Assembly: GCA_026391555.1 (NCBI GenBank)
Contig: JAPLEB010000058.1
Coordinates: forward strand, 1-64,000
Direction of reading: 5' to 3'
Source of the DNA: Bacteroidia bacterium
GTDB lineage: Bacteria > Bacteroidota > Bacteroidia > Bacteroidales > VadinHA17
DNA: 64,000 nt
Part shown: positions 82 to 2,511 of the stretch, one piece after another
Numbering within the stretch: the stretch's first letter is position 1
Layout of the letters: each line of letters begins with the position of its first letter
Notes under the pieces: generated by a model
Databases searched by the model: none
What the model was told of the DNA's origin: nothing
The model's input: only the letters and a program-made list of their open reading frames with translations
Translations under genes and position numbers: made by a program

Positions 82-1425
82 TTAGAGTTTGAAAGCCTTC
101 TTTATCTTATCAACATAATCCAGTTTTTCCCAGGCAAAGAATTCAACTTTTTTCAGATAAACTTTTTTGCCGTTGCCATTCACAATTTTTGGTTTACTGC
201 CGGGTACTTCATAGTATACTTCAACATTTTTAACTGTACAATCACGACCAAAATGTCCGTAAGAAGCTGTTTCCAGGAACACCGGGTTTTTCAGTCCGAA
301 ACGCTGAACGATAGAGTAAGGACGCATATCGAACAGTTTGTTGATCTTTAATCCAATTTCTTCATCGGAGAGCAATTTGCCTTTACTGTCTTTTACTTTA
401 GCTGTTCTGTATGTATTAACATATAAACCAACAGGTTGAGCAACACCTATAGCATAGGCAACCTGGATCAATGCCAGATCGCAAACGCCGGCTGCCACCA
501 GGTTCTTGGCAATATGACGGGCAGCATAAGCTGCTGACCTGTCGACTTTTGAGGAATCCTTTCCTGAAAATGCACCTCCTCCGTGGGCGCCATGTCCTCC
601 GTAAGTGTCAACGATGATTTTACGGCCGGTAAGACCTGTATCGCCATGAGGACCTCCGATGACAAATTTGCCTGTCGGATTTACAAGAAGTTTAAAATCC
701 TCATTGAAAAGTTTTTGTATTCTTTTAGGAAGAGCTTTTTTCACGCGTGGGATAAGAATTTTCTGAAGGTCATCCCTGATTTTTTTCTGCATCGCTTTTT
801 CTGCATTCTTTTCAGATTTGTACGATTTGTTCTTTGGCAGAACAAATTCATCGTGCTGGGTGCTGACAACTATTGTGTCGATGCGGAGAGGTTTATTATT
901 GTCATCATATTCAACTGTAACCTGAGACTTACTGTCGGGTCTAAGGTATTTCATCTGTTTCCCTTCGCGCCTTATAGTTGCCAGTTCCTGGAGAATACGG
1001 TGAGACAGCTCTATGGTTAAGGGCATATAGTTATCCATTTCACGGCAGGCATAACCGAACATCATTCCCTGATCGCCAGCTCCCTGCTCTTCAGGCTTTT
1101 CACGAACCACACCCTGGTTTATATCGCTCGATTGTTCATGAATAGTCGATATTACACCACACGAATCGCAATCAAAACGGTATTCTGCTTTTGTATAACC
1201 AATGTTCCGTATTACTTTACGGGCAGTCTCCTGTACATCCACCCATCCTTCTGTACGTACTTCTCCACCGCAGACAACAAGGCCTGTTGTTACAAAAGTC
1301 TCGCAGGCAACTTTTGACTCGGGATCCCAGCGAAGGAATTCATCAAGTAAAGCGTCTGATATCTGATCGGCTACCTTATCGGGGTGGCCTTCTGAAACTG
1401 ATTCTGAAGTAAATAAATATCCCAT
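82..1425 (-). CDS. metK: S-adenosylmethionine synthase
   Basis: Makes S-adenosylmethionine from methionine and ATP, releasing phosphate and pyrophosphate; cytosolic homotetramer in the family. The 447-residue protein starts [20 protein letters not shown], where HPDK (residues 14-17) is the ATP-binding motif. It carries the conserved GAGDQG loop in the N-terminal third and the glycine-rich [13 protein letters not shown] segment in the middle. It is longer than the roughly 380-residue proteobacterial enzyme because of insertions rich in lysine, as is usual in Bacteroidota. The ATG is chosen because the MetK signature starts immediately after it. A probable SAM-II riboswitch sits about 70 nt upstream of the start, so the product probably represses its own synthesis. 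It is transcribed alone. Confidence 0.97.
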
Positions 1426-1492
1426 AATTCAATTATTAGTTGATTATTAAACAACAGATGGGCAGTTTGGTTGATTGAAAAAGAGGGAATTA

Positions 1493-1547
1493 TCAGCATT
1501 TTAGCATTTTTTTCCTGTGGTTGCAATCAGAACAAATCTTTCCACCA
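1493..1547 (-). ncRNA. SAM-II (SAM-alpha) riboswitch aptamer in the metK leader
   Basis: On the minus strand the metK leader reads GGTGG, then AAGATTTGTTCTGATTGCAA, then CCAC, then an A-rich run and TGCTAAAATGC. GTGG (1545-1542) pairs with CCAC (1520-1517) to form P1. The loop holds the family hallmarks GATTTG and TTGCAA, and the downstream GCTAAAA is the conserved segment that folds back to form the H-type pseudoknot of SAM-II. The order, spacing and short P1 match what I recall of the SAM-II consensus, a class described in alphaproteobacteria and Bacteroidota. The position between a candidate promoter and metK fits feedback by SAM. I could not run a covariance model. Confidence 0.8.
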
Positions 1548-1560
1548 ATTTATGACGGTA

Positions 1561-1592
1561 CAAAGCAAATAAAAAAAATCAGAAAAACCAAA
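1561..1592 (-). promoter_or_regulatory. metK promoter, Bacteroidota type
   Basis: Minus strand TTTG (1592-1589), a 20-nt spacer, then TTGCTTTG (1568-1561), which matches TAnnTTTG except for one base. The predicted transcript start near 1554 falls just before the riboswitch aptamer, which supports both calls. Confidence 0.6.
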
Positions 1593-1596
1593 AATA

Positions 1597-2511
1597 TTAT
1601 GCGTTGGTAAGATTTCTGAAAACATCTTCAAGATTACTCTCCTGCTTCTGAAGTGAGAGTACAGTGAGGGTATTTCTTACAGCAAAGTTGAATATAGCAG
1701 GACGGATATCCTCATCGCCTTCAGCTTCAATCAGCCATAAATTGTTATTAATCAGGCTAACCTTGCTGACATTACCAATATCAGCCAGCAACGACTCTTT
1801 TGTGTCCTTATCAAACTCCACGCGGATTACCTGTTTCGGGCGCTTTATAAGGGAATAGATTTTACTCTTCTCTTCGTCAGCTACTATAACACCTTTATCA
1901 ATAATTATAACTCTGTCGCATATTGCTTCAACCTCCTGCATGATATGTGTTGAAAGCATCACGGTCTTTTCTTTTCCAACCTCTTTGATCAGGTTTCGAA
2001 TGTCGACAATCTGATTAGGGTCGAGTCCGGCGGTTGCCTCATCGAGAATCAGCACCCCAGGGTTAAGGATAAGGGCCTGGGCAAGTCCGACCCTCTGTCT
2101 GTATCCTTTTGAAAGTGAACCGATCTTTTTCTTCTGTTCCGGCGCCAGACCGGTTAATTCAATAATATTATCAATCTGCTTTTTCTTTGGAAGTCCCGTC
2201 TTGTATATTGAAGCAACAAACCCAAGATATTCCCTCACGTACATTTCAGGATATAGGGGGTTATTTTCAGGAAGATAACCTATTTGCTTTTTTACTTCAA
2301 GATTGTCAACTCCCACTTCAAGGCCATTAACGTACACCTGTCCGGATGAGGCAGGGATGAAACCGGTAATAATCTTCATCATTGTTGATTTTCCGGCACC
2401 GTTGGGACCAAGAAACCCAACGATCTCACCTGTTTTAACCTCGAAAAAGACATTATCGAGAGCTTTCTGTTCGCCAAAAAACTTTGTAACGCCCTGAATT
2501 ACAATTGACAT
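1597..2511 (-). CDS. gldA: gliding-motility ABC transporter ATP-binding protein GldA
   Basis: ATPase subunit of the GldA-GldF-GldG ABC transporter associated with gliding in Bacteroidota, acting on the cytoplasmic face of the inner membrane. Seen: Walker A GPNGAGKS (residues 35-42 from the chosen start), signature LSKGYRQR, Walker B VLILDEATAGLDP and the H-loop STHIMQE. The C-terminal 80 residues form the extra domain typical of GldA and related exporters. The ORF track starts 17 codons earlier, inside the upstream gene; ATG at 2511 gives MSIVIQGVTKFFGEQ, the usual GldA start, and leaves a 10-nt gap to the usp gene. Partners gldF and gldG are not in the window, so the transporter must be completed from elsewhere. 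Confidence 0.85.
   Translation of the reverse strand: MSIVIQGVTKFFGEQKALDNVFFEVKTGEIVGFLGPNGAGKSTMMKIITGFIPASSGQVYVNGLEVGVDNLEVKKQIGYLPENNPLYPEMYVREYLGFVASIYKTGLPKKKQIDNIIELTGLAPEQKKKIGSLSKGYRQRVGLAQALILNPGVLILDEATAGLDPNQIVDIRNLIKEVGKEKTVMLSTHIMQEVEAICDRVIIIDKGVIVADEEKSKIYSLIKRPKQVIRVEFDKDTKESLLADIGNVSKVSLINNNLWLIEAEGDEDIRPAIFNFAVRNTLTVLSLQKQESNLEDVFRNLTNA

Follow-up and report, generated by a model that had tools for sequence, protein, structure and literature searches.

In the window analyzed here (the whole stretch of DNA, 64,000 nucleotides [nt]), the S-adenosylmethionine (SAM) synthetase gene metK lies behind a SAM-II (long-loop) riboswitch aptamer, with a promoter sequence just upstream of the aptamer and, just downstream of it, a leader strand whose pairing with the aptamer covaries across families. 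It is highly probable that these components (the RF01726 aptamer, metK, the promoter, and an anti-aptamer helix) form an OFF switch. Under the proposed mechanism, metK would be transcribed from its own promoter, beginning a few bases before the aptamer, and in the presence of SAM the nascent leader would fold into an H-type pseudoknot composed of helices P1 and P2. When SAM is absent, the leader at 1489 to 1457 would instead pair with the linker, with the loop (including the P2 5′ strand), and with the P1 5′ strand, producing one extended nested hairpin that is incompatible with the aptamer, and metK would be expressed. SAM would free the downstream strand, and metK expression would fall. That the aptamer binds SAM, that the switch turns metK off, and how it does so are inferred; because the leader shares its class with known SAM-II riboswitches, repression by SAM of its own synthase, metK, is expected by analogy.

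The metK leader

The features of the leader, all on the minus strand and given in the direction of transcription, are as follows.

1589 to 1592, minus strand: putative −33 promoter element TTTG (from sequence).
1561 to 1568, minus strand: putative −7 promoter element TTGCTTTG, matching TANNTTTG at 7 of 8 positions (from sequence).
1491 to 1551, minus strand: SAM-II (long-loop) riboswitch aptamer, RF01726 (cmscan, 58.4 bits; gathering score, 44).
1542 to 1545, minus strand: P1 5′ strand GUGG (from sequence and P1 covariation).
1523 to 1528, minus strand: 5′ strand GAUUGC of the pseudoknot helix P2 (from sequence and the RF01726 alignment; role taken from the known SAM-II structure).
1517 to 1520, minus strand: P1 3′ strand CCAC (from sequence).
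1500 to 1505, minus strand: 3′ strand GCUAAA of the pseudoknot helix P2 (from sequence and the RF01726 alignment).
1457 to 1489, minus strand: predicted anti-aptamer block UUCC...CAAUCA..CAAACU..CCAUC (minimum-energy fold of −20.9 kcal/mol; cross-family covariation).
82 to 1425, minus strand: metK, S-adenosylmethionine synthetase of 447 amino acids and the proposed regulated gene (Pfam PF00438, PF02772, and PF02773).

Judged by its covariance-model match, the aptamer of the metK leader is an ordinary, already catalogued SAM-II long-loop riboswitch, of a kind known since 2010. The cmscan alignment spans the whole model (positions 1 to 60), with E-values of 2.3 × 10^-10 when 1.2 kb is searched and 1.2 × 10^-8 when the whole window is searched, and RF01726 is the sole Rfam family to exceed its own gathering score across the window. 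This score upholds the SAM-II class proposed in the initial annotation, which had named the wrong accession of two: the RF00521 (SAM_alpha) model reaches 14.9 bits, below its gathering cutoff of 36, and was ruled out. Because RF01726 is the applicable family, taking the failure of RF00521 literally as a refutation would wrongly discard a correct observation.

The hallmarks from which the class had been recognized are all present on the minus strand, with GTGG (1545 to 1542) paired with CCAC (1520 to 1517) and with GATTTG (1538 to 1533), TTGCAA (1526 to 1521), and GCTAAAA (1505 to 1499) in the loop and tail. The P1 5′ strand has two predicted partners: bases 1520 to 1517 when the aptamer forms, and the downstream block when the alternative fold does. 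Among 206 leaders, P1 is formed by GTGG/CCAC in 176, GAGG/CCTC in 24, and GCGG/CCGC in 3, compensatory changes of the sort that the initial annotation had suggested looking for, and cognate P1 strands pair better than swapped ones (z = −8.8). Both strands of P2 (GAUUGC and GCUAAA) are present and near-invariant, and this invariance leaves their covariation test (z = −0.64) uninformative.

The open reading frame at 1425 to 82 carries all three of the Pfam domains listed above, confirming metK as the downstream gene. Its ATG (1425) lies 73 nt beyond GCTAAAA and 65 nt beyond the Rfam match, near the earlier estimate of 68 nt, and the median distance from aptamer to start codon across loci is likewise 73 nt. 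On the same strand, genes for an ABC ATPase (2511 to 1597) and a universal stress protein lie upstream.

Bacteroidota promoters follow the consensus TTTG-N19-21-TANNTTTG. In the window, TTTG (1592 to 1589) is followed after 20 nt by TTGCTTTG (1568 to 1561). Of 76 family representatives, 66 have TANNTTTG in the 30 nt preceding P1 (median spacing from the end of the element to P1, 12 nt), whereas it falls there in 4.4% of dinucleotide shuffles. These frequencies support the position of the TTTG-N20 promoter that had been proposed upstream of the aptamer, and from that position transcription would start a few bases 5′ of the aptamer.

Predicted pairing between the aptamer and the downstream leader

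The aptamer, metK, and promoter of the initial annotation have stood, its accession has not, and it had missed the anti-aptamer block at 1489 to 1457. The 30 to 50 nt 3′ of the aptamer complement the aptamer 5′ half and the linker in nested order, the order required by a single hairpin. Within the window, the predicted partners of the block are GGAA (1515 to 1512), UGAUUG (1529 to 1524), UUUG/AG (1539 to 1533), and GGUGG (1546 to 1542). The consensus for the genus of the window sets CAATCAACCAATCTTCC against GGAAAGATTTG..TGATTG, and that for Flavobacterium-like loci sets GCAATtATTTTTcCTC against GAGGAAAAAT..ATTGC. Since the same bases form P1 and the P2 5′ strand, the anti-aptamer helix and the aptamer would be mutually exclusive. 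The alternative fold of the window is predicted at −20.9 kcal/mol versus −7.5 kcal/mol for the P1 hairpin plus the rest, a comparison in which P2 and SAM go uncounted because the energy model takes in neither pseudoknot nor ligand. Taken alone, the window duplex has a P value of 0.06 against shuffles; leader folds contain a mean of 14.6 anti-aptamer pairs, compared with 9.2 when the downstream part is shuffled.

Covariation was assessed by duplexing each aptamer half with each downstream leader, removing row and column means, and comparing cognate pairs with permutations. The test set comprised 76 loci, each representing a family or, within well-populated families, a genus. Cognate duplexes average −14.7 kcal/mol and swapped duplexes −12.1 kcal/mol (z = −9.8), and none of 20,000 permutations was as low. 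Controls are flat, both for upstream sequence (P = 0.6) and for coding sequence (P = 0.26). The signal is also ordered along the leader: the loop side pairs with leader nt 8 to 30 (z = −8.0) and the A-rich linker with nt 4 to 30 (z = −6.4), whereas the P1 side pairs with nt 25 to 60 (z = −3.6) and not with nt 8 to 30 (z = +0.5). A further 59 loci yielded z = −8.5 (linker, z = −3.1) with flat controls, for a pooled z of −13.6; these loci were picked after the first set and similarity-filtered against it, and many share families, such that the replication is not fully independent. The permutation test ignores phylogeny, but the controls are nonetheless flat at the family level.

A real aptamer followed by complementarity that reflects nothing beyond shared base composition and common descent, with no switch, is improbable. 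Related loci do have both strands in common, and within the genus, covariation does not rise above that of the upstream control (z = −2.45 and −2.43, respectively), as this explanation would have it. Across families, however, the strands change together while the upstream and coding controls stay flat in two sets of loci, and row and column effects had been taken out. An RNAalifold analysis of a MAFFT alignment of the representatives recovered nothing beyond P1 and local pairs, missing the block because the downstream region is unalignable across families. Conservation and covariation of the anti-aptamer strand across families are well supported by these sequence comparisons, and the strand is also likely to be the expression platform.

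Possible routes from the released strand to metK expression

How the released strand might lower expression is a more tentative matter. We favor, at somewhat under even confidence, a translational output in which the released strand would block initiation. This strand covaries with the region from −8 to +8 around the start codon (z = −4.5), with values near zero further off, and folding the leader without the aptamer lowers start-codon accessibility relative to shuffled leaders (P = 0.006). In the further loci, the start-codon signal is weak (P = 0.027; upstream control, P = 0.067), in the genus of the window it is not significant (P = 0.15), and exact k-mer complements of the metK start are modestly enriched in the leader (11, versus about 5 to 6 expected). 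Folding of the window itself gives no support to start-codon occlusion there: the start codon is paired in both states, and CCCAU:AUGGG pairing has a probability of 0.03.

Rho-dependent termination is a less likely output. Here, the C-rich, G-poor leader would serve as a Rho loading site that is exposed with SAM and masked by the anti-aptamer helix without it. Across the 76 loci, leader nt 8 to 45 average about 27% C and 9% G, the metK leader ranks in the top 2.5% of 81 leaders from its own genome (drawn from 20 contig stretches plus the window) for C minus G, rho is encoded in the genome, and no intrinsic terminator was found in the leader. However, any block able to pair with the purine-rich aptamer strand GGAAAGA would be C-rich anyway.

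Attenuation through a classical intrinsic terminator, in the style of alphaproteobacterial SAM-II, is very improbable. Alpha- and betaproteobacterial SAM-II leaders are mostly associated with terminators (PMC2258182), and a weak Bacteroidota relative preceding metY (locus L078) has a hairpin followed by T8, but no hairpin with a U-run lies between the aptamer and metK in the window, and such terminators appear in 3 of the 76 representatives, compared with 1.3% of shuffles. Simple occlusion, in which the aptamer alone blocks ribosome binding and the downstream complementarity is idle, is reported for the metX SAM-II riboswitch (PMC10907184) but is improbable for metK. A median of 73 nt separates the aptamer from the start codon, which argues against direct blockage by the aptamer, the aptamer 3′ strand contains no Shine-Dalgarno motif, and the downstream block covaries with the aptamer.

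Extended to Bacteroidia, occlusion by the released strand would imply a conserved SAM-II long-loop platform in which the downstream strand alternates between the aptamer 5′ half (no SAM, on) and the start codon (SAM, off), a generalization that we hold a little more loosely still. Shine-Dalgarno-based ribosome binding is rare in Bacteroidota, and a start-codon-exchange switch, if true, would suit bacteria that hardly use such sequences.

Distribution and comparison with known SAM-II systems

Of 35 genomes from the same genus, 31 have the aptamer, in keeping with the conservation among close relatives anticipated at the outset, as do 266 of 393 genomes from the order, 67 of 396 from the class, and 46 of 297 from the phylum; the relatives with names are uncultured Bacteroidales genomes. 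At 76 of the initial 78 loci, metK follows the aptamer. The two exceptions are L077, whose match (32.7 bits) is probably spurious, and L078 (31.9 bits; 1775 to 1830, minus strand), where the weak SAM-II match is followed by the hairpin and T8 of an intrinsic-terminator layout and by a metY-like gene (product similar to O-acetylhomoserine sulfhydrylase), an arrangement unlike that of the metK leaders. One genome of the order (G413) has a second SAM-II copy, before a metH-like gene (L209, 151 to 209), that keeps the downstream block (CCAATCATCAATCTCCCC), so the block appears to travel with the riboswitch rather than with metK.

Several leaders depart from the common architecture. An extra hairpin of about 10 to 50 nt is inserted between P1 and GCTAAA in Flavobacteriia-like loci (L040, L043 to L044, and L048 to L058), and L059 has one within the loop, before GATTGC. 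In two named relatives (L118 and L121), the metK leader has what looks like a promoter and begins as an aptamer would (partial GTGGAA..TTTGATT) but holds no complete aptamer; these are possibly decayed or assembly-damaged copies. In several members of the genus (L029, L030, L060, L064, L068, L074, and L075), an additional repeat-like stretch (AAGTACTTAAAGT ... CTCTAAGTACTTTAGGCACTCCAAACTT) separates the riboswitch from metK; neither it nor the REP-like repeat in the leaders of some relatives is present in the window. The motif TTGTTTAA sits roughly 28 nt 5′ of the start codon, at 1454 to 1447 (minus strand) in the window, and is overrepresented, occurring in 7 of 76 metK leaders where 0.45 would be expected.

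Weinberg et al. (2010, PMC2864571) listed RF01726 under the name "SAM-II long loops," from Bacteroidetes and marine samples. The window matches the same covariance model at full length and belongs to the same phylum, metK is the adjoining gene at nearly all loci examined here, and the aptamer is no different; the passages of that paper's main text consulted here give no expression platform. Searches of an open-access library of papers returned no description of an anti-aptamer platform for SAM-II, and we provisionally regard this platform as new.

Alphaproteobacterial SAM-II leaders act by intrinsic termination or Shine-Dalgarno occlusion (PMC9373788, PMC2258182, PMC10907184). SAM_alpha (RF00521), which precedes metA, metZ, and metX in alphaproteobacteria, shares the ligand class, the H-type pseudoknot, and the GCUAAA strand with the aptamer of the window, but the latter scores below the RF00521 cutoff, and its leader differs from those of RF00521, which rely on intrinsic terminators or on direct occlusion (PMC9373788, PMC10907184), in having a downstream strand predicted to re-pair the aptamer and in showing no terminator. 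SAM-V has the same fold and SAM site as SAM-II (PMC6061858) but is a translational switch whose Shine-Dalgarno sequence lies at the aptamer 3′ end, a layout that the window does not match. The aptamer of the window is one more member of a catalogued class, and what is added to that class is the anti-aptamer strand, which would explain how SAM-II works in Bacteroidota, provides a specific strand to mutate, and bears on the control of the essential gene metK in a major phylum of gut, soil, and aquatic habitats.
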